Position numbers and translations under genes: made by a program | NCBI RefSeq assembly: GCF_900220985.1 | Contig: NZ_OCPC01000007.1 | Coordinates: 1 to 64,000 of the forward strand | DNA: 64,000 nucleotides | Direction: 5' to 3' | From: Parahoeflea halophila | GTDB lineage: Bacteria > Pseudomonadota > Alphaproteobacteria > Rhizobiales > Rhizobiaceae | The notes under the pieces: model-generated | Seen by the model: only the letters and a program-made list of their open reading frames with translations | Databases searched by the model: none | What the model was told of the DNA's origin: nothing | Shown here: positions 1-17,242 of the stretch, in pieces | Numbering within the stretch: the stretch's first letter is position 1 | Layout: each line of letters begins with the position of its first letter

Positions 1-455
1 TTGGCGCCAGCGGCGCGCCGCCCTCGTTGTGTGAGCGGGTTATAGGGGCACCCCACCAAATGAGTCAACACTCTTTTTCAACAAAATCGAATTTTCTTTG
101 ACCAGAAGGAAAAATTCCTTACGCCACCGCTACGAAAGCCCGGAAAGCCGGCATTTCAACCGATTACCCTGCCCGTTTTTTATCAAATGAAACTGATTTT
201 ATCCTTATTTGAGGGCAAAGCGATCGCAATGGCGGTGCCGCCCCTGACACCCTGTCCAGGATAGCACCGGTTTCGATGGCTTGATCGACCTTAATGCTGA
301 AACCCGGATCGACTTCCTGCGAGCATCCCCCTTCAACAGCTTCTGCAGCCATCAGCTTCGAAACCGCAAGAAAAAGGTTGAAGGCCCCTGCGTGGACGGC
401 GCCCGTCTGCGCACGATATTTCCATCGGGCCGGCCATCAGATCGGATCGGCAGTC
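1..455. other. No supported gene at the left edge
   Basis: This stretch holds an AT-richer segment (about 60-220) and no reading frame with a recognisable family or a convincing ribosome binding site. A frame open from the left edge on the plus strand closes at TAG 43-45, so the 3' end of a gene lying outside the window cannot be excluded. I see nothing else I can name. Confidence 0.4.
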
Positions 456-884: not shown

Positions 885-932
885 AAGCCGAAGTGGCAAC
901 AAGCCGCCTCAATCAGCGGTTTCGCGCCAGTT

Positions 933-2351
933 TCAGGTGAGGCTGGCGGAAGCCTGCTTTCCGGCAGCGTCTCCGGCGACAAAACCGAAACCCACGGCCG
1001 TCAACAAACCGTTGCCGGAAAGATAACCCGACACATCCGGCCCCGACACGCCGCAGGCCGCACCGCCGCCGGCAAACAGATTGGCGAACGGGCTGCCGTC
1101 TTCACGCAGGACGCGTGCCTCCCCGTCGATCATCAGGCCGCCCTGAGTGTGGAACAGGGCTCCGGTCACCTTGACCGCAAATAACGGCGCGGCAAGTGCC
1201 GGCTTGCCGGTGAATTCCCGGCCAAACGGATCCGCGGCCTGCCCGGATTGATATCTCGCAACCTCTCCAAGTGTTGTGTCCAGTGCCGCTTCGGAGAGGC
1301 CGGTAACGCTGCCGAGTTCACGAACATCCCCCGCCTTTTTCACCGCACCGGCCGCCATCGCCTCCCGGTAATCGGGAAAACCCTTGGCAAAAGCATGCAG
1401 CCGCGCGTCATAGATGTTCCAGGCAATTCCCCCTGGCTGTTTAAGCACGTTGACGGCCTGTTCCGAATAGCCGCCATGCTCGTTGGAGAAACGCACCCCG
1501 TCGGCGTTGACCTGAATGCCGCCCTCCATCATCAGCGCCCAGGAGATCAGGATTCCATGCGGATGCGCGAGCGAGCCATGGCCCTGATAACCGGAAAGAT
1601 GCTCGATGCGGGCGCCAAGCGTCTCACCCCAGACCAGGGCATCGCCGGTGTTGCCCTGATGGCCGTAATAGAGACCGTCGGCAATCTCGGGGATATGCTG
1701 GCGCACCAACGCGGCATTGCCTCCGAAACCATTGCAGGCCAGCACCAGCGCCGTACAACCAAGCATTTCCGTGGCCCCGTCCGGTCGGGTGATTTCGACA
1801 GCTGTGATTCTGTCTTCGGCTTCTGCAAAAAGGGTGGTGACATGGGCCTCGGTGACGATCGGGATCTCCGCCGCCTCGACCGCAGCCAGCAACCGCGCCT
1901 CCAGTGCCGCGCCCGTCTTTTCGGGCACCGCGTGCATCCGGTGCCGGGAATGGCCGGGATAGAGGAAATCATGGAGCACGATCCACTCCAGCCCGTGTGT
2001 GTCAGCGAGCCATTCGAGAGCCGGCCCTATCGTCTGCGTCGCAAGCCGGGCCAGGGACGGAGCCGACCTGCCCTTGGACTTAGCCATGATGTCGGCTTCG
2101 AAACGCTGCGGCGTGTCATCCGCAACGTCAATTGCGCGCTGAAACCGGGTCGCCGGCGCCGGCACGAAACCCGACGACATCGAGGTCGAGCCGGAAGGCG
2201 AGCCGTCCCGTTCGAGAACCATTACCTCGGCCCCGGTGGCTTTTGCCCTGAGCGCCGCAACCAGTCCGCATGCTCCTGCACCGATGACGACAACATCCGC
2301 CTCTGCATCGATGCGGTCGGGTGTCTGCCGCGATATCCGGCCGCCGCTCAC
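933..2351 (-). CDS. FAD-dependent fumarate reductase/succinate dehydrogenase-type flavoprotein
   Basis: A soluble FAD oxidoreductase of the fumarate reductase/3-ketosteroid dehydrogenase flavoprotein superfamily, about 472 residues. The N-terminus carries a Rossmann FAD motif (VVIGAGACGLVAALRA) followed by an acidic/basic strand end (MVLERD). The C-terminus has the family's second FAD-contact segment (NLFAGGGAACGVSG followed by GYLSGNGLL). I chose GTG 2351 because it lies one base after the stop of the upstream isochorismatase gene; upstream in-frame starts would overlap that gene and add an Arg-rich extension. It is the last gene of the 13-gene operon. In context it probably inserts or removes a C=C bond next to a carboxyl or carbonyl in the pathway substrate. 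The direction and substrate are unknown. Confidence 0.85.
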   Translation of the reverse strand: MSGGRISRQTPDRIDAEADVVVIGAGACGLVAALRAKATGAEVMVLERDGSPSGSTSMSSGFVPAPATRFQRAIDVADDTPQRFEADIMAKSKGRSAPSLARLATQTIGPALEWLADTHGLEWIVLHDFLYPGHSRHRMHAVPEKTGAALEARLLAAVEAAEIPIVTEAHVTTLFAEAEDRITAVEITRPDGATEMLGCTALVLACNGFGGNAALVRQHIPEIADGLYYGHQGNTGDALVWGETLGARIEHLSGYQGHGSLAHPHGILISWALMMEGGIQVNADGVRFSNEHGGYSEQAVNVLKQPGGIAWNIYDARLHAFAKGFPDYREAMAAGAVKKAGDVRELGSVTGLSEAALDTTLGEVARYQSGQAADPFGREFTGKPALAAPLFAVKVTGALFHTQGGLMIDGEARVLREDGSPFANLFAGGGAACGVSGPDVSGYLSGNGLLTAVGFGFVAGDAAGKQASASLT

Positions 2352-2352
2352 G

Positions 2353-2967
2353 TCAGGCTCCCGAGAACATGGCCGCCGCCTCACCGCAGGTGAGCGTCTT
2401 CGCCACGGTCGACAAGTCCGCGATGGCGCGCTCATGGGTCTCGGTCAAGAACGCGGCACACCCATCGCTGAGCACGAATGTCGAAAAATCCCTCACATGC
2501 GCATCGCGCACGGTGGAGGCGACGCCACCATTGGTGACGATGCCGCAGACCATCAGCGTCTCGATACCGGCCTTGCGCAGCACCCATTCGAGCCGCGTCA
2601 TGTAGAAAGCCGAATAGGCCACTTTCTCCACCGACAGATCCGCCGGCTGCAATTCGTCTACAAGCGAATGCCCCCAACTGCCGGGTGCAAAGTCACCCTT
2701 TGTCAGGAATGGACGGATCTGCCTGAGATGCGGCGAAATGAATGGCTCGCCGCCCTTCCCCGGCACAAGGGTGAATTGGGTCGAGATGATCCAGCCGCCC
2801 TTCTGTCGGAGCGCATCGGCGACCGGCAACACCCTGTCCGGCAAGGCCGCAATGTCGGCACTTTTCTGGTTGCCTCGTGCATAAGCACCATCGGGGTGCA
2901 CAAAGTCGTTCTGAAGATCGACAATCAGCAGGCCCGTTCGTCTGGGGTCGATGGCATGAGCGGTCAT
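2353..2967 (-). CDS. Isochorismatase-family cysteine amidohydrolase
   Basis: A 204-residue cysteine hydrolase of the isochorismatase fold. The triad is visible: Asp17 in LLIVDLQND, Lys115 in VEKVAYSAF and nucleophile Cys141 in MVCGIVTNGGV. The family includes nicotinamidase, N-carbamoylsarcosine amidase, biuret hydrolase and maleamate amidohydrolase (NicF). It lies 3 bp after hyuA. Next to an ATP-dependent hydantoinase/oxoprolinase pair, the likely role is hydrolysis of the linear amide or carbamoyl acid left after ring opening, releasing ammonia or carbamate. The exact substrate cannot be read from the sequence. Confidence 0.88.
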   Translation of the reverse strand: MTAHAIDPRRTGLLIVDLQNDFVHPDGAYARGNQKSADIAALPDRVLPVADALRQKGGWIISTQFTLVPGKGGEPFISPHLRQIRPFLTKGDFAPGSWGHSLVDELQPADLSVEKVAYSAFYMTRLEWVLRKAGIETLMVCGIVTNGGVASTVRDAHVRDFSTFVLSDGCAAFLTETHERAIADLSTVAKTLTCGEAAAMFSGA

Positions 2968-2970
2968 TGT

Positions 2971-5022
2971 CTAGGCTCCCGGCGTGATCACGAGATTGCC
3001 GAAACCATCGACCACGGCATCCAGGCCGGGATCGACAAAGATCGTGGTGTCGGCCTGTTCGAGCAGCGCCGGTCCAACAATATTGGCTCCGACGGCCAAT
3101 TGCAGCCGTTCATAGACCGCCGCCTCGTGCCATTCGCCCTCCGCAAACACCCGTCGCGTTCCCATCCGGCAATCCTCTGCCGGCTTGCCGTCGACCGGGG
3201 CAAACACCGCCATGTCGAGCTTCGGACGGCGGCCGATCACCGCGATCCGGTAGTTCATGATCCGCATCGGAATGCCTTCGAGCAGCCGGCCGTAGCTTTC
3301 CCGGTAAGCGGTCTCGAAAGCGTCACGGATGTCTTGCGTCGTCAGCCCTGTTTCCGGAAACCCGATCGCCACATTCACCGTATGGGTCTGGCCGAGATAG
3401 AGCATGTCGAGCTCGGCCACCCGGTCCACGCGGGCAAAAGCGACGCCTGCGTTTTCGAGCAGCGCTTCGGTCTCGTCTCCAACGCGGATCATCTCAGCGC
3501 CAAGTTCCGCCGCATCGACCTGATCGAGCAGCCGGTTGACCGTCTGCACCCGGTCGTGGCGCATATCCGCCACGACACAGCCGAGCGCCGAGGTAACACC
3601 TGGAAAGCGCGGAACCAGAGCCGAGGCAAGACCGACCTCTTTGATCAGCGCGCCGGTGTGAAGCGCGCCGCCGCCGCCGAAGGGCATCGCCGAAAACTTT
3701 GCCGGGTCATGGCCCTTCTCAATGGAGACCAGGCGGATCGCGCCGGCCATCTTGGCATTGGCGAGCTTCAGGATTGCCTCCGCTGCCTGTTCGATGGAGA
3801 GCCCCAGCGGTTTCGCCAGATGCGTGTCGATCGCCTGCCGCGATGCGTCGATGTCGAGTCGCGCCAGTTTGCCGCCGATCGGGCGGTCCGGGTTGATGCG
3901 CCCAAGGACCACATTGGCGTCGGTGACCGTCGGCCGCTCATTGCCAAGCCCGTAGCAGGCCGGACCGGGATCGGACCCGGCCGATTCCGGTCCCACCTGT
4001 AATAGACCGCTGGCGTCGAGCGAGGCGATGGAGCCGCCGCCGGCGCCAATGGTGGTGATCTCGATCATCGGCGTGCGCACCACCATGCCGAAATCGATGG
4101 CCGTCTGGGCCGCCAGCGCCGCCTCGTTGTCGGCAACCAGCGACACGTCGAAAGAGGTGCCGCCCATGTCGCAGGTGATGATGTTGTCAAAGCCCGCAGC
4201 CTTGGCAATCGCCGTTGCCGCAATAACGCCCGCGGCCGGGCCTGAAAGCGCGGTTCTGACCGGGTAGCTCTTGGCCATGTCGATTGACATCACACCGCCA
4301 TTCGACTGCACGATCAGGATGTCTCCGCCAAATCCCCTGGCCTCGAGCCCCTTTTCCAGCTTGTCGAGATAGGACGAGACGACCGGCTGCAGGTAGGCGT
4401 TCAGCGTCGCGGTCGAGAGCCGCTCAAATTCGCGAATCTCCGGCAGGATCTCGGTGGCGGCTGTGACATAGGCATTGGGCCAGACGGAGCGCACCGCCTC
4501 AACGGCGCGCTTCTCGTTGTCGTTGTTGGCGTAGCCATTGATGAAGAACACACAGACCGCCTCGCAGCCACTCTTGGCAAGCGCTTCGGCCTGCGCCTTG
4601 ACCTCGGCTACGTCGACAGGCTCGGCCACGGTACCATCGGCCAGCACGCGCTCGCTGACCTCGACACGGTCGGGCCGTTCCACCACCGGAGTAAAGGCCC
4701 CCTTGAGCCCCCAGGTCGTGGGCCGGTCGCGGCGGCGCATTTCCAAAACGTCACGAAACCCGTCGGTGGTGATGATACCGGTGCGGGCGCCCTTGCGCTC
4801 AAGCAGCGCATTGGTGCCAACGGTCGTCCCGTGCACCACCGTGGAAATATCGGCGAAGTTCTCGACCCTGCTGGCAATGCCCTCGACGAAGCCTTTCGAC
4901 TGGTCTCCTCGGGTAGAAGGCACCTTCGCGGTAGAGACCTGGCCGCTGGCTTCATCGAGAATGAAGACATCGGTAAAGGTGCCGCCGACGTCGACGCCGA
5001 TGACATAAGCTGGACGCGTCAT
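2971..5022 (-). CDS. hyuA: Hydantoinase/oxoprolinase family subunit A
   Basis: A 683-residue ATPase-type subunit of the hydantoinase/5-oxoprolinase/acetone carboxylase superfamily. The N-terminal ASKHA-like phosphate motif is GVDVGGTFTDVF (residues 9-20), followed by HGTTVGTNALLERKG. The Gly-rich segments TCDMGGTSFDV and SGPAAGVIAA are typical of the family. Members use ATP to activate a lactam or imide carbonyl (5-oxoproline, N-methylhydantoin, caprolactam) or to carboxylate ketones, always with a B subunit. The length is normal. It overlaps hyuB by the 4-bp ATGA at 5019-5022, so the two are translationally coupled. With hydro-lyase and lyase genes upstream and an amidohydrolase downstream, ring opening of a cyclic imide or lactam fits better than ketone carboxylation. 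Confidence 0.92.
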   Translation of the reverse strand: MTRPAYVIGVDVGGTFTDVFILDEASGQVSTAKVPSTRGDQSKGFVEGIASRVENFADISTVVHGTTVGTNALLERKGARTGIITTDGFRDVLEMRRRDRPTTWGLKGAFTPVVERPDRVEVSERVLADGTVAEPVDVAEVKAQAEALAKSGCEAVCVFFINGYANNDNEKRAVEAVRSVWPNAYVTAATEILPEIREFERLSTATLNAYLQPVVSSYLDKLEKGLEARGFGGDILIVQSNGGVMSIDMAKSYPVRTALSGPAAGVIAATAIAKAAGFDNIITCDMGGTSFDVSLVADNEAALAAQTAIDFGMVVRTPMIEITTIGAGGGSIASLDASGLLQVGPESAGSDPGPACYGLGNERPTVTDANVVLGRINPDRPIGGKLARLDIDASRQAIDTHLAKPLGLSIEQAAEAILKLANAKMAGAIRLVSIEKGHDPAKFSAMPFGGGGALHTGALIKEVGLASALVPRFPGVTSALGCVVADMRHDRVQTVNRLLDQVDAAELGAEMIRVGDETEALLENAGVAFARVDRVAELDMLYLGQTHTVNVAIGFPETGLTTQDIRDAFETAYRESYGRLLEGIPMRIMNYRIAVIGRRPKLDMAVFAPVDGKPAEDCRMGTRRVFAEGEWHEAAVYERLQLAVGANIVGPALLEQADTTIFVDPGLDAVVDGFGNLVITPGA

Positions 5023-6755
5023 TGAGCAGGCTCCCGGGTGCGCAGATCTCGTGTGGCGGCTTCATCGACAGACCCGTCCGGTCCGATGACGACGCCATAA
5101 TCCGCCTCGGCCCTCTCTGCTGTGATGTAGCCCAGCCGCAGGTCGCGGGTGACGCTTTCGGGGTTTCGCTCAAAGGCATGGCCATAGCCGCCGCCACCCG
5201 GTGTTTCGAGCCGCAGTCTCTGGCTGCGATCGATATGGACCCCTACGATCTTCGAGGCCATAGGCGGCACATGTTCGCCATCCGCCTGTTGGTAGTGGAA
5301 TATGTTCAGCGCACCTGCGCCGCCGCCGACGACGCCGGGCGGTGCGAACCGGCCGCGCTCACCGAACAGGAAGACATCCGCCTGCTTTTCCAGCAGCTCG
5401 ATCTCGTAGACAGCGCCAAGGCCGCCGCGGAATTCACCAGCGCCACCAGAATCGGGCCGCAACGCCCATTGCGTGAACCGCACCGGATAGGCCGCTTCGA
5501 GAATCTCGAGCGGCGGGATCGTGGCGGTGGAGATCGGCGCATTGCCGTGGTTGAGACCGTCGCCGGCACCGTGCGCGCCATGGCCGCCGCCGAAGAACGA
5601 AAACATCACCCAGCGCTGGCCATTGGCCCGGTGCCCGGCGAGAGACAGCGCATTGATGGTGCCATAGGCACAGGCCATTGCCGGCTCGGGCGCGATCTGC
5701 GCCACGGCCTGGAACACCACGTCGATCAGCCGCAGGATCGTTTCGGTATAACCGCCGACCGGCTTCGGTGCTTTCACCGAAAGCAGGGAATCTTCTTCGA
5801 TGCGGAATTCGACCGGCTCCAGCACCCCGGCATTGGCCGGCACATCTCCGAAAATGTGCTTGAGCGCCACATAACAGGCGGCAATCGCTGTCGCCCGCGA
5901 GATATTGACCGGACCGGCACAGGCCGGCGAGGAGCGCGAGAAATCCATCACCATGCTGTCGCCGTCGATGGTGAGGTCGAGAGCGATCTTCAGCGGCGCG
6001 TCATGGATGCCGTCATTGTCGAGAAAATCTTCCGCCGAGACCGTACCCGAAGGCAGTTTGGAAATCTGCGCCCGCATCATCTGCGCCGCACGCGCCGTCA
6101 ACTCGGCCATGCAGTCGGCCACCTTGGCGTCGCCATACTCTTCGAGCAACGCGTTCATGCGCTTTTCGCCAAGCTCAAGCGCATTGATCTGGCCGTTGAG
6201 ATCACCGTAAAGCGAGAGCGGCAGCCGCGAGTTCGACGACAGGATGTCGACAATGTCCTGGCGGAACTCGCCCCGATCGTAGAGCTTGACCGGCGGGATC
6301 AGCATGCCCTCCTGGAAACACTCAGTCGCCGCCGGATTGTAGTTGCCCGGCACATTGCCGCCGACATCATGCCAGTGGCCGACCGATGCCAGGTAGCAGA
6401 ACACTTCTCCATTGCGGAACACCGGCTTGACCAGCCGGAAGTCGGAGAGATGCGTGCCGCCATCATAGGGATCGTTGAAGATCCAGACATCGCCTTCGTT
6501 GACACCGCCCTGTTTTGCAGCCTTTTCGATTACCGCCTTGACCGCAAACGCCATCACACCGACGAAGATCGGCAGGCCGGACTTGCCTTGCACCAGCGTG
6601 TCGCCGGTCCTGGCGTCATAGATCCCGTGCGAGGCATCATGCGCCTCGGCAATGATCGGATTGAACGCAGAGCGGAACAGCGTCGCGTCCATCTCGTCCG
6701 CGATCTGTTCCAGCCGGCCCTTTAGGATGGCCAGTGTGACCGGATCAATCGTCAT
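5019..6755 (-). CDS. hyuB: Hydantoinase/oxoprolinase family subunit B
   Basis: A 578-residue B subunit that pairs with the HyuA encoded next to it. The N-terminus (VTLAILKGRLEQIADEMDATLFRSAFNPII) and the segments NDPYDGGTHLSD and VGHWHDVGG are hallmarks of HyuB/oxoprolinase B. Conserved His/Asp residues in those segments probably bind metal or substrate. Length is within the family norm. The start ATG at 6755 overlaps the lyase stop by 4 bp (ATGA), and its own stop overlaps the hyuA start in the same way. No truncation is seen. Confidence 0.92.
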   Translation of the reverse strand: MTIDPVTLAILKGRLEQIADEMDATLFRSAFNPIIAEAHDASHGIYDARTGDTLVQGKSGLPIFVGVMAFAVKAVIEKAAKQGGVNEGDVWIFNDPYDGGTHLSDFRLVKPVFRNGEVFCYLASVGHWHDVGGNVPGNYNPAATECFQEGMLIPPVKLYDRGEFRQDIVDILSSNSRLPLSLYGDLNGQINALELGEKRMNALLEEYGDAKVADCMAELTARAAQMMRAQISKLPSGTVSAEDFLDNDGIHDAPLKIALDLTIDGDSMVMDFSRSSPACAGPVNISRATAIAACYVALKHIFGDVPANAGVLEPVEFRIEEDSLLSVKAPKPVGGYTETILRLIDVVFQAVAQIAPEPAMACAYGTINALSLAGHRANGQRWVMFSFFGGGHGAHGAGDGLNHGNAPISTATIPPLEILEAAYPVRFTQWALRPDSGGAGEFRGGLGAVYEIELLEKQADVFLFGERGRFAPPGVVGGGAGALNIFHYQQADGEHVPPMASKIVGVHIDRSQRLRLETPGGGGYGHAFERNPESVTRDLRLGYITAERAEADYGVVIGPDGSVDEAATRDLRTREPAQ

Positions 6756-7621
6756 TCTTGCGTGTCTCCATCGTAACGCTTGCCGCTTGCAAGCAGATCG
6801 GCCGTACCGATGACGCCGTTGAGGCCGGCGAAATCGAACATGCGGTTGCGGAAAGCTTCATTGGAACCCGAAGACAGCAGGTTTGCGTAATAGTCCCGCG
6901 CCGTGGCTGCGATAGCGCGCACGATCCCGCCCGGGAAAATGACAAAACTGAACCCGAGCTCCTGAAGACCGGTCGCATTGATGATCGGCGTCTTGCCGCC
7001 CTCGACCATGTTTGCCATCAGCGGCACCCGGCCGCCAAAGCGTTTGACGATGAGATGGATTTCGTCCATCGACTGCGGCGCCTCGATGAACAGCATGTCG
7101 GCGCCCGCCTCGACATAGGCTTCGGCCCGGTCCATGGCCGCATCGAAACCTTCAACAGCAATCGCGTCCGTCCGTCCGATCACCAGGGTTTCTTCCGAGT
7201 GCCGTGCATCGCAGGCCGCGCGGATCTTGCCTGCCATTTCGCCTCTTGAGATCAGCGACTTTCCGTCAAGATGACCGCAACGCTTGGGCATGGTCTGGTC
7301 TTCGAGCTGCAGCGCATTGGCGCCCATGCGTTCGAAAACCCGCACCGTCCGCTGCACATTGAGCGCATTGCCGAAGCCGTTGTCGGCATCAACGACAATT
7401 GGCAAGGAAATCCGGTCACGCAGCGCCGCGATGCAATCGGCCACCTCGCTCATGGAGACCAGCCCGATGTCGGGGCGGCCGAAACGGGTATAGGCGATGG
7501 ACGCGCCCGACAGATAGACCGCCTCGGCGCCGGACTGCTCGGCGATCAGGCCGGTCAGGGCATCATAGACACCGGGCGCGAGCAGGATGTCCGCCTGGCC
7601 CAACCGTTGTTTCAGGCTCAT
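6752..7621 (-). CDS. Isocitrate lyase/PEP mutase family carbon-carbon lyase (dimethylmalate/methylisocitrate lyase-like)
   Basis: A 289-residue TIM-barrel enzyme of the ICL/PEP mutase superfamily. Visible signatures are the Mg-binding Asp cluster in VVDADNGFGN (Asp78, Asp80), Glu107 in QLEDQ and the lyase loop KRCGH (113-117) with the catalytic Cys115. PEP mutases and oxaloacetate hydrolases usually lack that Cys loop, so carbon-carbon lyase chemistry is favoured, as in 2-methylisocitrate lyase or 2,3-dimethylmalate lyase. The neighbouring LeuCD-like hydro-lyase makes a (substituted) malate cleaved to pyruvate or glyoxylate plus a carboxylic acid plausible. It is coupled by 4-bp overlaps on both sides. 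Confidence 0.88.
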   Translation of the reverse strand: MSLKQRLGQADILLAPGVYDALTGLIAEQSGAEAVYLSGASIAYTRFGRPDIGLVSMSEVADCIAALRDRISLPIVVDADNGFGNALNVQRTVRVFERMGANALQLEDQTMPKRCGHLDGKSLISRGEMAGKIRAACDARHSEETLVIGRTDAIAVEGFDAAMDRAEAYVEAGADMLFIEAPQSMDEIHLIVKRFGGRVPLMANMVEGGKTPIINATGLQELGFSFVIFPGGIVRAIAATARDYYANLLSSGSNEAFRNRMFDFAGLNGVIGTADLLASGKRYDGDTQE

Positions 7622-8124
7622 GCGCCGGCCTCCTTTGCACGTTCCGCGGCGAAACGCTTTTTCAAGTGCGGCACCAGCCCGCCATCGGCGAGCATCGGCC
7701 TGAGATTGTCCGGCAACGGCTCAAGCCGAACAGTTCGCTTCTTCTCCGTCAACCGCAGCTCGCCCTTCGCCGGGTCCAATGCGACAGCGTCGCCATCGGC
7801 AATTCCGTCAAGAGCATCTGTGACCAGAACTGGCAGTCCGAGATTGAGGGCATTGCGATAGAATATGCCTGCAAAGGATCTCGCGACCACGCCGGCAAGG
7901 CCGAGATGCTTCAGCGCTTCCGCCGCCTGTTCGCGGGAGGAGCCCATGCCGAAATTCTTCCCCGCCACGATGACGTCGCCGGGCTTCACGGTTTCGGCGA
8001 ATTCAGGCCGCACCGATTCCAGGCAATGAGCGGCGAGCATGTCGAGCCCCCCTTTCATGTACTGGCCCGGCGCCAGCTGATCCGTGTCGATATCGTCTCC
8101 AAGCAGGAAGATCCGTCCGTTCAT
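7618..8124 (-). CDS. Aconitase-family hydro-lyase small subunit (LeuD/DmdB-like)
   Basis: A 168-residue swivel-domain subunit. The start NGRIFLLGDDIDTDQLAPGQ and the segment AGKNFGMGSSREQAAEAL match the small subunits of isopropylmalate isomerase, archaeal-type homoaconitase and dimethylmaleate hydratase. The GSSREQA loop forms part of the active site. It pairs with the large subunit gene directly upstream (ATGA overlap at 8121-8124). The location in a catabolic operon, away from leucine biosynthesis genes, argues against a housekeeping leuD. (Alkyl)maleate or citraconate hydration is the likely role. Confidence 0.88.
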   Translation of the reverse strand: MNGRIFLLGDDIDTDQLAPGQYMKGGLDMLAAHCLESVRPEFAETVKPGDVIVAGKNFGMGSSREQAAEALKHLGLAGVVARSFAGIFYRNALNLGLPVLVTDALDGIADGDAVALDPAKGELRLTEKKRTVRLEPLPDNLRPMLADGGLVPHLKKRFAAERAKEAGA

Positions 8125-9401
8125 GCCGTGCCCGCCCCGTCTCTCAAAAACTCACGCGGATCTGCGATGCGCCCGGCAATGGCAGACGCCGCCACCGTCA
8201 ACGGGGAGGCCAGCCAGACCTTTGAGGATGCCGCACCCATCCGGCCCTGGAAATTGCGAGCAGTTGAAGAAACGCAGGTGACGTCTTCACCCAGACGATC
8301 CAGGCCGTAACCGGCGCAGATGCCGCAGGCATTGGGCAGGATCTGCGCGCCCGCTTCCTCTAAGACCGCCATTATGCCCTCGCTAGCAGCGCGCTGCTGG
8401 TCGCGCATCGAGGCCGGGGCGATCTTGAGCGCAACGCCCGGCGCCAGTTTGTGGCCGCGCAGGATCGCCGCCGCCCCCTTGAGATCTTCGTACTTGGCAC
8501 CGGTACAGGCGCCGATATAGGCCACATCGAATGGCGTCTCGGGTGCTTCGGTGACCGGCATCGCGTTGGCCGGCGAATGCGGTGCAGCCACCTGTGGCGC
8601 CAATGCGGAGGCATCGAGCACATGGTGCGCGGCAAGCTCGGCACCCGGATCGGTGGCAAGACCACGCCAGTCGCCGGCTGATCCGCCAACGCCTTCAAGA
8701 TAGGCCGCTGTCGTTTCATCCGGCGCGATCAATCCGGCCTGACCGCCAAGCTCGGCCGCCATGTTCGACAGAGTCATCCGCTCCTGCATCGACAGCGCCG
8801 CAATCGCTTCACCGGTATATTCCACCGCCTGATACTGTCCGCCGTCCATTCCGAGCCGGCCACACAATGCCAGCATGATATCCTTGGCGAGCACGCCCGG
8901 CGACAGCCGTCCCTGGCACTCGATCAGGATCGTGCCTGGAACCTTGAGCCAGATCTCCCCGGTGGCCAGAACACCCGCCATCTCAGTCGCACCGATGCCG
9001 AACATATAGGCCCCGAACGCCCCGCCCGTCGGCGAATGGCTGTCTCCACCGACGACGAGCATACCAGGTTTCAGGTGCCCGCGCTCCGGAAGCACTACAT
9101 GGCAGATCCCCTCGCCGTCGTGAAACGCGACCTTCCGCTCCCTGGCCCATTGCCGGGTCAGTTCGAGGATGCGCGCGCCTTCATCGGTGTCCCCGGGAAC
9201 AAAGTGATCTGAAATCAGCACCACCCTGGAGGCGTCGAACAGGCCGACGCCCAGCTCCTTGAGGATCGGCTCCACCCGTCGCGGGCCGCCCGAATCGTGG
9301 ATCATTGCGAGATCCACTCGCACCGTGACCACTTCTCCCACACGGGCGGTTTCCAGACCTGCAGCGCGGGCAATGATCTTTTGCGCAAGCGTCGATGCCA
9401 T
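8121..9401 (-). CDS. Aconitase-family hydro-lyase large subunit (LeuC/DmdA-like)
   Basis: A 426-residue iron-sulfur hydro-lyase large subunit. The [4Fe-4S] ligands are Cys299 (GACTGAKYED), Cys359 and Cys362 (NACGICAGYG). The motifs GGDSHSPTGGAFG and DHFVPGDT are aconitase-superfamily signatures. The usual DLALTHD active-site strand reads DLAMIHDSGGPRR here (about residues 30-42), a variation that probably reflects a different substrate from isopropylmalate. ATG 9401 overlaps the livF stop as TGATG; an in-frame GTG lies one codon upstream. It forms a complex with the adjacent small subunit. Confidence 0.88.
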   Translation of the reverse strand: MASTLAQKIIARAAGLETARVGEVVTVRVDLAMIHDSGGPRRVEPILKELGVGLFDASRVVLISDHFVPGDTDEGARILELTRQWARERKVAFHDGEGICHVVLPERGHLKPGMLVVGGDSHSPTGGAFGAYMFGIGATEMAGVLATGEIWLKVPGTILIECQGRLSPGVLAKDIMLALCGRLGMDGGQYQAVEYTGEAIAALSMQERMTLSNMAAELGGQAGLIAPDETTAAYLEGVGGSAGDWRGLATDPGAELAAHHVLDASALAPQVAAPHSPANAMPVTEAPETPFDVAYIGACTGAKYEDLKGAAAILRGHKLAPGVALKIAPASMRDQQRAASEGIMAVLEEAGAQILPNACGICAGYGLDRLGEDVTCVSSTARNFQGRMGAASSKVWLASPLTVAASAIAGRIADPREFLRDGAGTA

Positions 9402-10105
9402 CACGCCAGCCCCAGGTAGGAGCGCTGCAGCTCGGGATTGTCCATCAGATCGCCCGGGATACCGGACAGTTTGATCTCGCCGTTTTCCATGACGAAGGCC
9501 CGGTCGGCGATTTCCATCGATTGCAGCACATTCTGCTCGACCAGAAGGATTGTCAGCCCGTCCGTGTTGAGCTGCTTGATCAGCGAAAACATTTCCTCGA
9601 CCAGCAAGGGAGACAGGCCGATCGAAGGCTCATCGAGAATGAGCAGTCGCGGCTCGGCCATCATGCCGCGGCCAATGGCCAGCATCTGCTGCTCGCCGCC
9701 CGACAGGGTGCCGGCCTTCTGCGAAAACCGTTCGCGCAGGCGCGGAAAAATCTCTGCCACATGCTCGATGTTGCGCATCCGGTTGCCCTTGCCCCGCCGG
9801 TAGCTGCCTAGTTCGAGATTCTCCCGTACCGTCATATTGGGAAACACGTGCCGGCCTTCCGGCACCTGGATCACGCCCTCATCGACAATCGCCTGCGACG
9901 AAAGCCCGGCAATCGGCTTGCCCTCGAACGTGATCGCACCCGACCAGGGCTGCATTAGCCCGGACACCACCGCCGAAAACGTCGTCTTCCCGACGCCATT
10001 GGAGCCCAGCAGCGTGACGATCTCGCCCATGTCGATGGCAAGATCGATGCCGCGCAGGACTTCGACCGCGCCATAACCGGCGCGCAGATTGCTGACTTCA
10101 AGCAC
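9401..10105 (-). CDS. livF: Branched-chain amino acid-type ABC transporter ATPase (LivF)
   Basis: A 234-residue cytoplasmic ATPase. Walker A is LLGSNGVGKTT, the signature is LSGGEQQ and Walker B is LLILDEPS; VEQN replaces the H-loop region as in LivF. GTG 10105 is preferred: a GGGAGG Shine-Dalgarno lies 9 bases upstream, it gives the normal LivF length and overlaps the livG stop by 8 bp. The longer frame adds unrelated residues. It works with LivG, LivH and LivM. Confidence 0.9.
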   Translation of the reverse strand: MLEVSNLRAGYGAVEVLRGIDLAIDMGEIVTLLGSNGVGKTTFSAVVSGLMQPWSGAITFEGKPIAGLSSQAIVDEGVIQVPEGRHVFPNMTVRENLELGSYRRGKGNRMRNIEHVAEIFPRLRERFSQKAGTLSGGEQQMLAIGRGMMAEPRLLILDEPSIGLSPLLVEEMFSLIKQLNTDGLTILLVEQNVLQSMEIADRAFVMENGEIKLSGIPGDLMDNPELQRSYLGLA

Positions 10106-10847
10106 TGGTTGTTGCCTCCCGCCCGGCGATGCGTTCGGCCATGCCTTTGCCGAGATAGGCTTCAATGACATGCGGATCCGAGACAACCTCCCGCGGCGGC
10201 CCCTCCGCGATGATCGCGCCCTGGTTCAAGACCCAGGTGTAATCCGACAGGCTCATCACCGCCTGCATCACGTGCTCGATCAGCAGGATGGTCACGCCGG
10301 CATCGCGGATCGTGTTGATGACGGGAATCACATCGCGGATCTCAGACGGGTTCAGTCCGGCCAGGACCTCGTCAAACAGGATCAGCTTCGGGTCGGTCGC
10401 CAGCGCCCGCGCCACTTCCAGGCGCTTGCGCCCCGCCACGGTCAGCGACACCGCATCCATGTCCAGCCGGTCACCCAGACCAACTTGCCGGGCCACGTCT
10501 TCGGCCTTGGCCAGCGCCTCGGCGCGGTCGCGAATCTTCAGATGCGCGCCCACTGCAATGTTCTCCCGCACCGTCTGTCCGGCGAAGGGCTGGACGGTCT
10601 GGAAGGTCCGGATCATGCCCCGCGTGGCGATCGCTTCCGGCGGCATGCCGGTAATGTCTTCACCCAGGAACCGGACAGAGCCGGAGTCCGGCGTGTGGAA
10701 CCCGGTGATCAGCGCGAACAGCGTGGTCTTGCCGGCGCCATTGGGGCCGATCAGCGAAGTGATGCCGCCTTGCGGCACCGTCATGGTTACCGATTGCGAC
10801 GCCTTCACACCGCCAAAACTTTTGCAAATGCCGTTGATCTCAAGCAT
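10098..10847 (-). CDS. livG: Branched-chain amino acid-type ABC transporter ATPase (LivG)
   Basis: A 249-residue ATPase with Walker A LIGPNGAGKTT, a degenerate signature loop (LTVAGRKRLEVARAL in place of LSGGQ), Walker B LILFDEVLAGL and H-loop IEHVM. The non-canonical signature and DEVLAG are usual for LivG. ATG 10847 overlaps the livM stop by 8 bp; the longer frame would add a Cys-rich segment that shadows livM. It energises uptake through LivHM. Confidence 0.9.
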   Translation of the reverse strand: MLEINGICKSFGGVKASQSVTMTVPQGGITSLIGPNGAGKTTLFALITGFHTPDSGSVRFLGEDITGMPPEAIATRGMIRTFQTVQPFAGQTVRENIAVGAHLKIRDRAEALAKAEDVARQVGLGDRLDMDAVSLTVAGRKRLEVARALATDPKLILFDEVLAGLNPSEIRDVIPVINTIRDAGVTILLIEHVMQAVMSLSDYTWVLNQGAIIAEGPPREVVSDPHVIEAYLGKGMAERIAGREATTSA

Positions 10848-11832
10848 GGCCCTTGCCCTCTTCCGCCCGGGGTTGGCCAGGCTTTCCGCTGCGCAGATGC
10901 GAAGCCAGACCTGCAAGGCCACGCGGTACGAACAGCACCATGATGACGAGCAGCACGCCGTAAAGCACAAGGCTGATCCCCGGCGCGTCGCCGATCACTG
11001 CGCGCGAAAGTTCCGACAGGCCGTGCAGGAAGGCCGCCCCGAGCAAGGGGCCAAACAGCGTCCCCATGCCGCCGATGATCGGCACCAGCAGGCTTTCGAC
11101 AGAGATCGCCGCGCCATAGGCGATGTGCGGATCGAGATAGAGGAAGTACTGGGCGTAGAACACTCCGGCGAGACCGGCGAAAAAGCCTGACAGCATGATT
11201 GCGCCCATCTTCACCCGGAACGCATCAACACCCAGTGCCCGCGCAGCGTCCTCATTGTCGCGCACGGCCATCAGCTGCGCCCCGAAGCGCGAGTTTCCGA
11301 TCTTCCAGACCGTAAGAAAGGCGGCAAACGTCAAGATCCAGATCACCCAGAAGAAGCCTTCCTTGGACACGAATTGGAAATTGGCCGCGCTCCGTTCGAG
11401 CGGGATCAGCAGCCCGACGCCGGCGCCGGTGAAATCCACCGAGTTCGACAGAATTCGCAGCACTTCTGCGAACGCCAGCGTTACCAGCGCGAAATAGGAA
11501 CCGCGAAGGCCGTAGCGGAAGGTACAGAACCCGATGAAGGCACCGACGGCGGCAGCGGCGATACCACCAGCAACCAGGCCGATCCATGGGTTGATGCCGA
11601 ACTGCACCTGCAGCACTGCCACCGCATAGGCCCCGGTGCCGAAATAGGCCGCATGACCGAACGAGACCTGCCCGCCATAGCCACCCAGAATGTTCCAGGC
11701 CTGGCCAAGCAGGGCTGCGTAAAGCGTCATGATGATGATGTTGAGAAGCGAGTCCTGTGCGATCAGCATCGGCGCGAGCCCGATCAGGCCAAAGACCGCG
11801 ATCAGCATCAGCAGTTTTCTGTCGGTCTTCAT
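10840..11832 (-). CDS. livM: Branched-chain amino acid-type ABC permease (LivM)
   Basis: A 330-residue inner-membrane permease with roughly 8-10 hydrophobic segments. The family landmark GGYGGQVSFGHAAYFGTGAY lies near residues 50-70, and the cytoplasmic coupling helix region includes AVRDNEDAARALGVD. The short charged tail (HLRSGKPGQPRAEEGKGHA) runs into the livG start. It overlaps livH by 4 bp (ATGA) and forms the heterodimeric channel with LivH. Confidence 0.92.
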   Translation of the reverse strand: MKTDRKLLMLIAVFGLIGLAPMLIAQDSLLNIIIMTLYAALLGQAWNILGGYGGQVSFGHAAYFGTGAYAVAVLQVQFGINPWIGLVAGGIAAAAVGAFIGFCTFRYGLRGSYFALVTLAFAEVLRILSNSVDFTGAGVGLLIPLERSAANFQFVSKEGFFWVIWILTFAAFLTVWKIGNSRFGAQLMAVRDNEDAARALGVDAFRVKMGAIMLSGFFAGLAGVFYAQYFLYLDPHIAYGAAISVESLLVPIIGGMGTLFGPLLGAAFLHGLSELSRAVIGDAPGISLVLYGVLLVIMVLFVPRGLAGLASHLRSGKPGQPRAEEGKGHA

Positions 11833-12701
11833 GCCCTGGCTCCAAACAGACCCGTCGGCCGGAAAATCAGCACCAGGATGAAGATCAGGAAGATGCCGAT
11901 CTGGCCGAGGCTCTCGCCCAGAAACAACCCGCCCAGAGCTTCAACAACACCGATGATCAGCCCGCCAATGAGGGCGCCGACAAACGAGCCCATGCCGCCA
12001 AGCACCACGATGGTAAAGGCGATCAGCACGAAACCGCTGCCAACCTGAGGATTGACGTAATAGCTCGGCAGCAACAGGCACGCAGCGACGCCGAGGCAGG
12101 CAATACCGAGGCCAAAGCTCATGGCGAACACGTGATCGGCATTGATGCCGACCAGTTGCGCGCCCTTGCGCTCCTTTGCCAGGGCCCGGATGGCGCGGCC
12201 GAGATCGGTGCGGCTCATCAGCAGCCACAACAGCGCGGCCGTCATCAGCGCGCCGACGAATGCCACGACCTTGGGATAGGGCAGAAAGGCCCCGAAGATC
12301 TCGACGACATCAAAGGAATAGGGTGTGTCAACGGTGCGTGTGTCCGAGCGGAAAAAGTAGAGCGACAGGTTTTCGATGATGATCGAGAGCCCCAGCGTCA
12401 CCAGCAGGATGTTCTCGTCGCGGCCATGACTGGCGCGGCCGATAATGCCCCGCTGCAGAGCATAGCCGAGGGCGAACATCGCCGGCGGCACGATCAGCAA
12501 GGCCGCATAGGGATCCAGGCCGAATTGCACATTGAGGAAATAGACGGCGTATAACCCCAGCATCAACAGCGCCCCATGGGCGAAATTGATGATGTGCAAC
12601 ACGCCATAGATCAGGGTCAGACCGAGCGCGACCAGGGCGTATAGCCCGCCGGTGGTCAGCCCGTTGAGAACCGATGGAATGATGATTGCGCTGTCTGGCA
12701 T
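11829..12701 (-). CDS. livH: Branched-chain amino acid-type ABC permease (LivH)
   Basis: A 290-residue permease with about 8 membrane segments. The N-terminus PSVLNGLTTGGLYALVALGL and the motif INFAHGALLMLG are diagnostic of LivH; the coupling region reads GRAIRALAKERKGAQLVGI. It follows the SBP gene after a 72-bp gap that contains a strong stem-loop, so it should be made at a lower level than the binding protein. Confidence 0.92.
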   Translation of the reverse strand: MPDSAIIIPSVLNGLTTGGLYALVALGLTLIYGVLHIINFAHGALLMLGLYAVYFLNVQFGLDPYAALLIVPPAMFALGYALQRGIIGRASHGRDENILLVTLGLSIIIENLSLYFFRSDTRTVDTPYSFDVVEIFGAFLPYPKVVAFVGALMTAALLWLLMSRTDLGRAIRALAKERKGAQLVGINADHVFAMSFGLGIACLGVAACLLLPSYYVNPQVGSGFVLIAFTIVVLGGMGSFVGALIGGLIIGVVEALGGLFLGESLGQIGIFLIFILVLIFRPTGLFGARA

Positions 12702-12729
12702 GGCGGCCCGCGATCCGGAGGGGAAGTTC

Positions 12730-12754
12730 GGGCCGGACAGTCGATGTCCGGCCC
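12730..12754 (-). terminator. Intercistronic stem-loop between SBP gene and livH
   Basis: Perfect 10-bp arms GGGCCGGACA / TGTCCGGCCC around a 5-base loop. No T-tract follows on the transcribed (minus) strand, so it more likely stabilises the upstream SBP message or attenuates read-through than terminates fully. Comparable hairpins follow the other SBP genes in the window. Confidence 0.7.
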
Positions 12755-12773
12755 GTCGGCGTCGGTCGGAAGC

Positions 12774-14018
12774 CTACATCGTCATCGGAAAGACGGTTTC
12801 GGCAGACGCGAACTCTTCCGGATAGATCACTTCGATCTCACCCTTCTGAACCTGCGTGTTGACCGGCTGCGCGCCCTCGTTCTGACCATTGACCATTTTG
12901 GTCGGGCCATAGGGCATGCCGTGGTTGGCCCAGGTCGAGGACGCCAGCGCGGCATTGATGGCCTCGGGATCTGTCGACCCAGCACGCTCGATGGCGTCGG
13001 CCAGGAAGGCAACCGCATTGTAAGCCAGGAACACTTCGTAGGTGTAGACTAGGCCCGCTGCTTCCGCTGCCTTGCGGCGTTCAAGCGCGACCTCCGACTT
13101 CGGATCGTACCAGTGATTGCAATCCATGATCAGTTCGGCAGCTTCAGGGAACTCACCCACGAACTGAAGGTTCGACGCAGCTCCCCCAAGCACCGAATAG
13201 ATGCCCTTGGCTTCAATCTTCTGCTGCCGCAGGGTCCGGGCCAGAAGCACATATTCATTGTAGTAGTTGGCAGGAATGATCAGGTCGGGCTTCTTCGACT
13301 TGATCTGCAGCGCGATGTTGGTGAAATCACGCGTCGGGTTGGCGTGCTTGATCACGTCGACGACTTCGATTCCGATACCCGGAAGCTGCTTGGACAGAAG
13401 CTCTGCGGTGCCTGTTCCGAAGAGCGATTCCTCGTGAACGATCATCGCGGTCTTGGCCGGCGAACCGGCTGCCTTGTTGATGGTGTCGAGATTGGTAACC
13501 GCCATTTCCGCGACCTTGCCGTAGCCTGGCCCGAAGCGGAACGTGTTCGACAGCCCCCGGTTGACGATCGAGTCGGACACCCCGACATCGACCACATGCG
13601 GCGTGTTGGTCTTGGCTGCTTCCTGAGATGTCGCCAGCGAAATCGCCGAGGAATATCCGGCAACCAGGCCATGCACGCCGGCTTCGGCCATCTTGGTCAC
13701 CTCGGCAGCGCCGATATCCGGCTTGCCCTGGCTGTCGGCGAGCATCGCTTCGATCATGGCGCCGCCCATCGACTTGATGCCACCGGCGGCATTGATGTCG
13801 GCAATCGCCATCTCCGCGCCGGCTCGGCACTGCGAACCTGAAAACGCGATGAAGCCCGAAACCGGATGGATCAGGCCGATCTTGACCGGAGCGGCCTGTG
13901 CCCGCAGCACGGCCGGAAACCCTGTCACGCCTGCGGCCAGTGCCGCAGCACCCGTCGCAAGAAATTCGCGGCGGCGAATCCCTGAGGAATTGCTCTTTGT
14001 TGTCTTCGTATCAGCCAT
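12774..14018 (-). CDS. Tat-exported ABC substrate-binding protein (LivJ/LivK type)
   Basis: A 414-residue periplasmic binding protein. The N-terminus has a twin-arginine signal (GIRRREFLATG, then a hydrophobic stretch ending near AQA at about residue 43). The mature domain begins with VKIGLIHPVSGFIAFSGSQCRAGAEMAIADINAAGG, typical of type I (leucine/amide) binding proteins. Of the tandem ATGs, 14018 is chosen because it leaves 6 bases after AGGAGG. It lies 31 bp after gntR and ahead of livHMGF. The ligand is unknown; the operon suggests a cyclic imide-like or dicarboxylic compound and not an amino acid. Confidence 0.9.
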   Translation of the reverse strand: MADTKTTKSNSSGIRRREFLATGAAALAAGVTGFPAVLRAQAAPVKIGLIHPVSGFIAFSGSQCRAGAEMAIADINAAGGIKSMGGAMIEAMLADSQGKPDIGAAEVTKMAEAGVHGLVAGYSSAISLATSQEAAKTNTPHVVDVGVSDSIVNRGLSNTFRFGPGYGKVAEMAVTNLDTINKAAGSPAKTAMIVHEESLFGTGTAELLSKQLPGIGIEVVDVIKHANPTRDFTNIALQIKSKKPDLIIPANYYNEYVLLARTLRQQKIEAKGIYSVLGGAASNLQFVGEFPEAAELIMDCNHWYDPKSEVALERRKAAEAAGLVYTYEVFLAYNAVAFLADAIERAGSTDPEAINAALASSTWANHGMPYGPTKMVNGQNEGAQPVNTQVQKGEIEVIYPEEFASAETVFPMTM

Positions 14019-14052
14019 CATTCACCTCCTGTTTGATCGACCCACGGCCGAT

Positions 14053-14931
14053 TCAGTGTTCCCCGGTTATGTTTGTTTCAGCACCGCCGGCCGGGACCGA
14101 TGGCGCAGTTTCTGTCGCCCATCGCATGCCTTCTCTCTCGCGAACGCGATTCATGGACATTTCGAAGCGATAGATGTCGGGACGATAAAGAACCCGGATG
14201 TATTCGACTGGCCGGCCCGAACTGTCGCGAACGACGCGGCGAACCTCGATAAGCGGTGTCCCGGCATGCACCGACAGGGCGCTGGCCACGTCCGAATCAG
14301 CAAGTGAAGCGGATATGGTCTGGCGCGCCGATGCCACATTGACCCCCGCCAGCTCGAGCAGCAGCAGCAGCGGTTTGGCATCGAGGTCCTCGCGGCCGAA
14401 CTGCCTGCCGATATCGGCGGGAACATAGGTCACCAGATAGGACATCGGTTCGCCGTCCAGGCTACGAACGCGCACGGCATGCTGAACCTCCGTCCCCGGC
14501 TCGATCTCCAGTGCGTGGACAATGTCTTCATTGGCCGGGACGTAATCCAGCTCCAGCACACGGGCTTCGGTCGCAATGCCCATCAGCGAGATGTTTTCCA
14601 GCCACCCGTCAATGGACGAGGTCACAGCCGGCGCCTTCGGACGGTGGATAACCCGCGTGCCCCGGCCCCGTTCGCGCACCACGAGACCGGCATCAGCGAG
14701 CTCGTTGAGGGCCCGCTTGGCAGTGATGCGCGAGACGTTGAATTCGAGGGCGAGCTCCTGCTCGCCGGGCACCAGTTCGCCGGAACGGACCTCACCGCCA
14801 AAGATGCGATTGCGCAGGATCAGGAAAATCTGGTGGTAGAGCGGCACCCGGGTATTGGGATCAAGCCGGACAGAAGTCCGCTCACCGCCTGTTTCAAGCT
14901 CGTCCGAATAGCCCGTCTTGGTCGTGTCCAT
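14053..14931 (-). CDS. GntR-family (HutC/UTRA) transcriptional regulator
   Basis: A 292-residue regulator. A winged helix-turn-helix lies at about residues 28-98 (VPLYHQIFLILRNRIFGGEV ... FNVSRITAKRALNELADAGLV), followed by a UTRA effector domain (about 120-275). A 20-residue N-terminal extension precedes it. It is the first gene of the 13-gene operon, and a palindrome in its upstream region (14957-14978) suggests autorepression relieved by a pathway metabolite. Confidence 0.9.
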   Translation of the reverse strand: MDTTKTGYSDELETGGERTSVRLDPNTRVPLYHQIFLILRNRIFGGEVRSGELVPGEQELALEFNVSRITAKRALNELADAGLVVRERGRGTRVIHRPKAPAVTSSIDGWLENISLMGIATEARVLELDYVPANEDIVHALEIEPGTEVQHAVRVRSLDGEPMSYLVTYVPADIGRQFGREDLDAKPLLLLLELAGVNVASARQTISASLADSDVASALSVHAGTPLIEVRRVVRDSSGRPVEYIRVLYRPDIYRFEMSMNRVREREGMRWATETAPSVPAGGAETNITGEH

Positions 14932-14978: not shown

Positions 14979-15253
14979 ATGTCAACAGATTCCGGATCGC
15001 GCCTGATATTTAAGCTTTCGGTGATTTTACATCCGGCCTCACCGGCCACCAGGACACCCGCGATAATGTGCCTGTTGCCATCAAATATGTCGTACCGTGG
15101 CTCGATGGCACGTTGTTTGCCAGCGCCAGGCGGGCGCATGCGAAAAATCACAAGTCCGCTTTCTGAGAGCGTTATTGCCAGCACTGGCTCGGATGCCCCT
15201 TCCCGGAAACTGCGGATGGTCCACGCTCCCCGCCGGTCTGCTGTCCTGCTCAG
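14966..15253 (-). CDS. Small hypothetical protein downstream of lysR (doubtful)
   Basis: An open frame of about 95 residues directly after the LysR stop. It has natural-looking composition (LAITLSESGLVIFRM, PRYDIFDGNRHIIAGVLVAG) but no family that I recognise with confidence. The frame is open further upstream inside lysR. No ATG sits close to the junction; a CTG overlapping the LysR stop (CTGA) is the nearest candidate start. Its end overlaps the candidate GntR operator. It could be a small gene co-transcribed with lysR, or spurious. Confidence 0.3.
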   Translation of the reverse strand: MSRTADRRGAWTIRSFREGASEPVLAITLSESGLVIFRMRPPGAGKQRAIEPRYDIFDGNRHIIAGVLVAGEAGCKITESLNIRRDPESVDIMAY

Positions 15254-16149: not shown

Positions 16150-16170
16150 GTGCAATTATTACGAAATGCG

Positions 16171-17204: not shown

Positions 17205-17242
17205 TGTTCAGGCGGGAGTGCGCTCCCGCACCGGAGGCTATC

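Follow-up and report, generated by a model that had tools for sequence, protein, structure and literature searches.

A 13-gene operon of Parahoeflea halophila with a cysteine-less isochorismatase-fold protein: a candidate route for the catabolism of cyclic imides

Introduction

The 2,3-dimethylmaleate branch of nicotinate fermentation consists of the hydratase DmdAB and a dimethylmalate lyase. The same succession of a LeuCD-type hydratase and an ICL/PEPM-family lyase was encountered in an operon of 13 genes on the minus strand (933-14931) of a 64,000-nucleotide stretch of Parahoeflea halophila DNA, called the window below, which is the start of contig NZ_OCPC01000007.1 (our C5) in a 4.19-Mb genome. 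Unlike in the nicotinate branch, the hydratase and the lyase occur in aerobic Alphaproteobacteria and are accompanied by HyuAB, an isochorismatase-fold protein (ISO), a FAD-binding flavoprotein (FAD protein) and an importer, and the conserved operon set is without nicotinate enzymes. The methylcitrate cycle (PrpD, aconitase, PrpB) follows a similar logic of hydration and dehydration, and PrpB, the 2-methylisocitrate lyase, is the NCBIfam model closest to the window lyase. However, this lyase scored 284.7 bits against the PrpB cut-off of 354.4 (TIGR02317) and is coupled to ring-opening hydrolases.

The ring-opening part also has described relatives. HyuA and HyuB share their subunit families and an Asp-His-Asp-His metal tetrad with caprolactamase CapAB and the ATP-dependent hydantoinases, as described in PMC8453981, but the window proteins scored only 535 (CapA) and 335 bits (CapB) against the curated caprolactamase cut-off of 1000. 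In Aspergillus nidulans, according to PMC9304392 and PMC8478523, HxnM and HxnN turn a cyclic imide into a half-amide and then free the nitrogen by amide hydrolysis, which is the order proposed here. PMC9304392 describes that HxnM opens 3-hydroxypiperidine-2,6-dione before an amidase acts, that it shares 64.2% identity with a cyclic imide hydrolase homologue from Pseudomonas putida, and that the PuuE family includes allantoinase as well as cyclic imide hydrolases such as HxnM. The PuuE-related family to which HxnM belongs also serves in the swapped operons described below, whereas in the window these steps would fall to HyuAB, which depends on ATP, and to an isochorismatase fold devoid of the Cys. 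ISO has the fold, Asp17 and Lys115 in common with the family of RutB, carbamoylsarcosine hydrolase and maleamate amidase; these have a Cys nucleophile, whereas ISO has Gly148 in every member seen.

We lean towards the interpretation that the 13 genes are inducible as an operon and serve the catabolism of a cyclic imide that is unsubstituted at N and bears alkyl and probably also carboxyalkyl groups. To the author of an earlier note on this DNA, they looked like a complete pathway for cyclic imides, and no described operon with exactly this gene set was known to that author. Searches of an open-access library returned no report contradicting that statement, nor the gene combination, the Cys-less ISO branch or the modular swaps in print. 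The gene families themselves are known.

Results

Conservation and linkage of the gene set

All 13 genes were recovered by open reading frame (ORF), Pfam and NCBIfam analysis. ISO constitutes a discrete family and was therefore used to probe other genomes; its presence was accepted at E <= 1e-50 (weakest accepted match, 1.3e-86) in a class sample of 289 genomes. For the lyase, the threshold was E <= 1e-100, below which the score list was empty down to 1e-76. ISO was present in 19 of the 289 genomes, and all 19 also carried the lyase with at least 57% identity. The lyase was found in 38 genomes overall, including 19 of the 270 without ISO (Fisher p 1.4e-19, uncorrected for kinship). ISO and lyase lay less than 7 kb apart in 15 of the 19 genomes; the four unlinked cases were G287 and three genomes of one genus (G033, G162 and G260), assigned to Tistrella from coordinates and from the identity between L175 and L039. 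In a phylum sample of 398 genomes, ISO was detected in eight, one of which (G686, locus L174) lies outside the class.

The gene order was then compared over 86 loci fetched by ISO, comprising 80 genome loci with names and six plasmid loci. The earlier note had proposed such a comparison, and the order did recur: PEPM (the lyase), HyuB, HyuA, ISO and the FAD protein stood in one same-strand run in 59 of the 86 loci, and several of the other 27 were interrupted by contig ends. Taken singly, the same-strand run around ISO included HyuA in 84, HyuB in 76, PEPM in 72, the FAD protein in 68, LivHMGF in 46, a window-type LeuC in 41 and the periplasmic binding protein (SBP) in 36 loci. LeuCD of other relatives was of a different type and stood elsewhere in the cluster. 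ISO occurred without HyuAB in two loci. The closest named loci were from Hoeflea (ISO 88-91% and lyase 98% identical), and a Paraburkholderia plasmid carried GntR-SBP-LivHMGF-LeuCD-HyuBA-ISO-PEPM, without the FAD protein. Plasmid matches also placed an operon copy in Azospirillum brasilense, and Roseibium has copies of HyuAB and ISO.

ISO has lost the nucleophilic cysteine

ISO matched the isochorismatase fold of Pfam PF00857 (1.7e-39). It was aligned with RutB and with relatives that bear the Cys; the motif TNVCVEST of RutB corresponded to TNGGVAST. Gly147-Gly148 was invariant in 88/88 aligned members, the window included, and position 148 was Gly in 104/104 aligned copies (99 distinct) and in all 86 loci. 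D17 and K115 were kept in 86/86 loci. Of the Asp-Lys-Cys triad of cysteine amidohydrolases (NicF, RutB, carbamoylsarcosine hydrolase), ISO thus has D17 and K115, with Gly148 in place of Cys. Judged by these alignments, the acid/base pair is retained, the nucleophile is lost and the protein is not a canonical cysteine amidohydrolase, so that the label 'amidohydrolase' in the earlier note was wrong in detail. The fetched loci also contained five paralogues of greater distance, with Cys (three), Ala (one) or Thr (one) at this position. Attack of a neighbouring cis-carboxylate on its own amide is a reaction known in model chemistry. We hypothesize that the loss of Cys is most simply explained by such an attack within a substituted maleamate, with D17 and K115 aiding the departure of ammonia.

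The flavoprotein is probably an alpha,beta-dehydrogenase

The earlier note had called the flavoprotein fumarate-reductase-like and had assigned it no role. In the alignment with flavocytochrome c3 and urocanate reductase, both columns of the Arg pair (catalytic and substrate Arg) of fumarate reductase flavocytochrome c were occupied by Tyr, at Tyr296 and Tyr444. Here and below, n is the number of relatives with an alignable copy: Y296 was present in 66/66 and Y444 in 64/64 relatives, and the active-site His residues H259 and H402 were kept. The score with the flavo_cyto_c NCBIfam model was 216 bits, below the cut-off of 285. The replaced Arg residues are catalytic in the flavocytochromes, and Tyr at positions 296 and 444 is typical of 3-ketosteroid dehydrogenases. 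Because of this Tyr pair, the FAD protein is expected to dehydrogenate beside a carbonyl rather than to reduce fumarate, and is a probable alpha,beta-dehydrogenase.

HyuAB, LeuCD and the lyase keep their signature residues

HyuA and HyuB have the domains, the ATP-site Asp and the metal tetrad of ATP-dependent HyuAB hydrolases. D40, H102, D105 and H127 of HyuB were kept in 74/74 relatives; they correspond to the metal tetrad of CapB given in PMC8453981.

The earlier description of LeuC and LeuD as a hydro-lyase was borne out. LeuC scored 426 bits with hacA_fam (cut-off 385.7) and 414 with IPMI_arch (cut-off 410), and both subunits fell within the homoaconitase/LeuCD-DmdAB families. Its Fe-S cysteines C300, C360 and C363 were kept in 39/39 relatives. 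The solved structure closest to LeuD was the homoaconitase small subunit 2pkp, and K24 of LeuD aligned to the Arg of the homoaconitase YLRT motif. Across 42 relatives, position 24 was K or R in 36, S in three, G in two and A in one. The position was considered as proof of a third carboxylate; in view of these exceptions, it was kept as a hint only.

The lyase belongs to the ICL/PEPM superfamily by its PEP_mutase domain and KxCGH gating loop. The loop reported earlier was confirmed, with K113, C115, G116 and H117 in 73/73 relatives and R (69) or K (four) at position 114.

Natural swaps of the ring-opening enzymes

In three alphaproteobacterial loci (L180, L184, L192) and on a Burkholderia plantarii plasmid (L194), the lyase and LeuCD were kept, and HyuB-HyuA-ISO were replaced by a carbamoylsarcosine-hydrolase-like amidohydrolase with Cys and two PuuE-like proteins. 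The FAD protein was kept in L180 and L194. L180 also retained GntR, SBP and LivHMGF, TRAP genes stood in place of the ABC importer in L184, and L194 combined the PuuE set with FAD protein, LeuCD and lyase as well as ETF, acyl-CoA dehydrogenase and CaiB genes. The replacement amidohydrolase has the isochorismatase fold with the motif TSGCVRAT, which includes the Cys. It was closest to N-carbamoylsarcosine amidohydrolase (26st 1.2e-33, 1nba 2.5e-29), followed by 3ot4/3uao (1.7e-19), of which 3uao is a maleamate amidase. The lyase tree comprised 53 rows, and its three PuuE-type rows fell among Hyu-type rows, which needs at least two changes. The triad of Cys amidohydrolase and two PuuE-like proteins also occurred at L204 and L206, where the fetched stretch contained no lyase or LeuCD; the triad is therefore a portable cassette and no proof of a single substrate. 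The window genome had one PuuE-like match (29%).

Natural swaps of desaturation and cleavage

In Tistrella (L039/L175), HyuAB-ISO was accompanied by an acyl-CoA dehydrogenase, CaiB and LeuCD, and PEPM and the FAD protein lay in a second cluster elsewhere. The acyl-CoA dehydrogenase and CaiB stood directly after ISO, in the place of the FAD protein; a comparable desaturation would here fall to another enzyme. The Acidiphilium locus L200 combined the PuuE set and LeuCD with CaiB, HMG-CoA lyase and a FAD homologue (51%), and had no PEPM in the 24.7 kb fetched. There, and in L083 below, a CoA-transferase (CaiB) together with HMG-CoA lyase replaces the PEPM lyase. On two sphingomonad plasmids, the PuuE set and LeuCD occurred with HMG-CoA lyase and a more divergent lyase (38%).

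The two loci without HyuAB, L082 and L083, carried ISO with an Amdase-family gene. In L083, ISO overlapped this gene (PF17645) by 4 bp, together with LeuCD, CaiB of the succinate-glutarate/mesaconate CoA-transferase type and an HMG-CoA-lyase-like protein; a FAD_binding_3 monooxygenase, an SDR and an aldehyde dehydrogenase were neighbours. Among solved relatives of the Amdase-family protein, arylmalonate decarboxylase matched at 1.7e-8 and the maleate cis-trans isomerases at 6.5e-8 to 1.6e-7. The two functions were not separable, and both NCBIfam models scored far below cut-off.

Discussion

The proposed pathway

The scheme is built on the observed genes, linkage, conserved motifs and swaps, and each reaction, its place in the order and the substrate are predicted from them. 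The ABC importer would take up a cyclic imide. The FAD protein would desaturate a saturated, succinimide-type ring or acid beside the carbonyl, and HyuAB would open the ring with ATP to give a half-amide. From this, the Cys-less ISO may expel ammonia to leave a substituted maleate or fumarate, with water or the neighbouring carboxylate of the substrate as nucleophile and Asp17/Lys115 as acid/base. LeuCD would hydrate the C=C bond to a substituted malate, which the lyase would cleave to a 2-oxo acid (pyruvate or glyoxylate) and a carboxylate.

The non-homologous swaps support this order of chemistry, since each of them retains the reaction type: amide opening and hydrolysis, desaturation, hydration and retro-Claisen cleavage. 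Reaction types preserved in this way most likely indicate that the substrate is the cyclic imide of a C4 (or C5) diacid with substituents. Of the pathway read earlier, the succession of opening a cyclic amide, hydrolysing the amide, hydrating the C=C bond and cleaving the C-C bond was thus supported, but the labels of ISO and the FAD protein were not. If the scheme is true, Paraburkholderia and Alphaproteobacteria from the open ocean, from soil and from plants would share an undescribed, widely distributed way to obtain carbon and nitrogen from cyclic imides. It would also give HyuAB a cyclic-imide role and the isochorismatase fold a Cys-free amidase-like branch, and the fate of small chlorophyll and haem imide fragments would become directly testable.

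Evaluation of the alternatives

Several findings weigh against the imide reading, and some of them fit a hydantoin equally well. The absence of Cys in ISO speaks against an ordinary amidase. The PuuE-like proteins scored below the allantoinase cut-off, and the nearest relative of the replacement amidohydrolase, carbamoylsarcosine hydrolase, suits a hydantoin just as well. The same applies to genes for Asp/Glu/hydantoin racemases, which lay close to 12 examined loci (closest solved structure, allantoin racemase, 5e-14). Together with MmgE/PrpD genes near 19 loci examined and a tautomerase-SnoaL fusion near 10 loci, with more in extended flanks, these racemases have no place in the imide scheme. 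None of the three occurs in the window, and the window genome had no match to the tautomerase fusion; the accessory genes are therefore considered dispensable. The operon at L195 is without the FAD protein. Moreover, among L196, L197 and L199 the lyase was accompanied by LeuCD only, or by only a tricarboxylate-carrier gene or GntR. The lyase in itself does not imply an imide, and these arrangements suggest direct use of substituted maleates or malates. With regard to ISO, the Cys-less protein might not be an amidase at all, and instead hydrolyse an enol ether or enamine like the true isochorismatases, or serve as a non-catalytic partner. The invariant Gly at the Cys position agrees with this, and true isochorismatases, to our knowledge, are likewise without Cys. 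However, the invariance of D17 and K115 makes a dead protein unlikely, and a Cys amidohydrolase of the same fold takes the slot of ISO in the PuuE variant; we regard a non-amidase as rather unlikely.

The main rival substrate is a hydantoin-type cyclic ureide, for which HyuAB would be an ATP-dependent hydantoinase, ISO would remove the carbamoyl group or urea, and the skeleton would pass through LeuCD and the lyase. HyuAB does belong to the classical ATP-dependent hydantoinase family, the PuuE-like proteins score best with allantoinase, purine-degradation genes adjoin the operon in three marine relatives, and the racemases and the replacement amidohydrolase point the same way. Nevertheless, an amine would remain after breakdown of an N-carbamoyl amino acid, and the conserved gene set contains no transaminase, ammonia-lyase or amino-acid oxidase. 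With an imide, no amine-removing enzyme would have to be conserved, because the nitrogen would leave as ammonia from the half-amide. LeuCD and ICL/PEPM lyases, furthermore, act on nitrogen-free di- or tricarboxylates, and ISO of L083 overlaps a gene of the Amdase/maleate-isomerase family without HyuAB. We judge the hydantoin unlikely. Another candidate substrate is a lactam or a ring derived from pyridine, one example being the glutaconimide citrazinate. It would yield an aconitate-like acid, with PrpD, LeuCD and the lyase as a private methylcitrate cycle. Caprolactamase as the best match of HyuA/HyuB, the PrpD genes mentioned above, the homoaconitase-like LeuCD with its basic residue at the YLRT Arg position in 36/42 LeuD, the methylisocitrate-lyase-like lyase, the tricarboxylate-carrier binding proteins in or beside the variants L036, L174 and L196-L199, and a molybdopterin hydroxylase cluster 2.7 kb downstream in Sulfitobacter sp. 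S190 can all be cited for it. However, such molybdenum hydroxylase neighbours are not constant, belonging to a purine cluster in L122-L124, and the window operon is without PrpD; we rate this ring as slightly less likely again than the hydantoin.

Which imide

Within the cyclic-imide interpretation, the homoaconitase-like LeuCD, the methylisocitrate-lyase-like lyase, the basic residue 24 of LeuD and the carriers point weakly to a carboxylated substrate. TRAP carriers stood beside L040, L041 and L184, in addition to the tricarboxylate-carrier binding proteins listed above. Neutral alkylmaleimides are accordingly less favoured than an imide with a carboxyl group, among which haematinic acid is the best fit.

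Chlorophyll has a reduced ring D; a dihydro imide is accordingly expected among its products, which would be a task for the FAD protein. It is conceivable, although quite unlikely in this specific form, that the operon serves to break down haematinic acid along with its dihydro form, the carboxyethyl-methyl imides from oxidised chlorophyll, haem and bilins. In such a route, the FAD protein would desaturate the succinimide of reduced rings, HyuAB would open the maleimide, and the Cys-free ISO amidase would use the cis-carboxylate of the substrate as nucleophile to expel ammonia. The homoaconitase-like LeuCD would hydrate carboxyethyl-methylmaleate to a methyl-homoisocitrate analogue, and the methylisocitrate-lyase-like enzyme would release pyruvate and glutarate. 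This would constitute a dedicated sink for the last nitrogenous chlorophyll fragments. In the chlorophyll study PMC7318184, haematinic acid was present in leaves at quantities like those of propentdyopents, maleimides were undetected, and earlier reports of maleimides and haematinic acid from senescent leaves and lake sediments are cited.

Operon layout and further observations

The features of the operon are listed in Table 1. Neighbouring genes overlapped by 4 or 8 bp at 8 of the 12 junctions. Gaps were found between GntR and SBP (31 bp), SBP and LivH (72 bp) and HyuA and ISO (3 bp), and the gap between ISO and the FAD protein is 1 bp if GTG at 2351 is the start of the latter. The solved structures closest to SBP were Leu/Ile/Val-binding proteins, which are uninformative on the ligand.

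Table 1. Genes of the operon in the window, in order of transcription
Gene product	Position	Strand	Basis
GntR/UTRA (HutC-type) regulator	14053..14931	-	Pfam UTRA 7.6e-35, GntR 8e-18; best NCBIfam HutC, under cut-off
Periplasmic binding protein type 1 (SBP), branched-chain amino acid/amide class	12774..14021	-	Pfam Peripla_BP_6 1.7e-47
LivH-type permease	11829..12701	-	ORF; in same run in 46/86 relatives
LivM-type permease	10840..11832	-	ORF; in same run in 46/86 relatives
LivG-type ATPase	10098..10847	-	Best NCBIfam LivG, under cut-off; start inferred
LivF-type ATPase	9401..10105	-	Pfam ABC_tran; GTG start inferred
LeuC-like hydro-lyase large subunit, homoaconitase/IPMI-archaeal type	8121..9404	-	NCBIfam models, Fe-S cysteines
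LeuD/DmdB-type small subunit	7618..8124	-	NCBIfam LeuD/DmdB family 189.5 vs cut-off 108.95
ICL/PEPM-family C-C lyase (alkylmalate/methylisocitrate type)	6752..7621	-	Pfam PEP_mutase 2e-43; KxCGH loop
HyuB, metal subunit, ATP-dependent cyclic-amide hydrolase	5019..6755	-	Pfam Hydantoinase_B 8e-171; CapB 334.9 bits
HyuA, ATP subunit	2971..5022	-	Pfam Hydantoinase_A 2.6e-91; CapA 535 bits
ISO, isochorismatase-fold hydrolase without nucleophilic Cys	2353..2967	-	Pfam PF00857 1.7e-39; RutB alignment
FAD_binding_2 flavoprotein, probable alpha,beta-dehydrogenase	933..2351	-	Pfam 3.2e-48; GTG start inferred

Some related loci showed further gene content. A Variovorax RA8 plasmid (L198:7942-19289) carried an LLM-type monooxygenase, an SDR, an isochorismatase-fold protein that has Ala instead of the Cys, the lyase, LeuCD, a flavin reductase, a tricarboxylate-carrier SBP and GntR, and may be a further variant. 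Beside the operon in L134 and L135, and in part in L128, a second, paralogous cluster was found (lyase 43-46%, FAD protein 39-41%). It included PrpD-like genes, a TRAP permease and amidohydrolases, with two PuuE-like genes in L134 and L135. At L179, L182, L185 and L188, the lyase had only scattered recognisable partners. In the marine Rhodobacteraceae L122, L123 and L124, an entire urate-degradation set (xanthine dehydrogenase, urate oxidase, OHCU decarboxylase, allantoicase, ureidoglycolate lyase) lay between parts of the operon gene set. Beside the operon of Sulfitobacter S190 (L040:19697-26766), there were a molybdopterin hydroxylase, a '6-hydroxynicotinate reductase', UPF0280 and two 'amino acid synthesis' proteins. 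A molybdenum hydroxylase was considered as a constant upstream step and was rejected, being near the operon in Sulfitobacter S190 but part of the urate/allantoin cluster in L122-L124.

Within the window, positions 423-937 (+) hold a broken remnant of a binding-protein-like gene (SBP_bac_8 match under cut-off). The gene is intact beside the same operon in Hoeflea L043, and three pieces with 52, 91 and 70% identity are left in the window, a large part having been lost. At 15250-17851, a LysR-like regulator is divergent from glyoxalase/ring-cleaving-dioxygenase-like and esterase-like genes, all named by eye. At 30416-30770 (+), two abutting matches to a TRAP large permease lie in different frames and together span roughly one quarter of the protein; the gene may have decayed.

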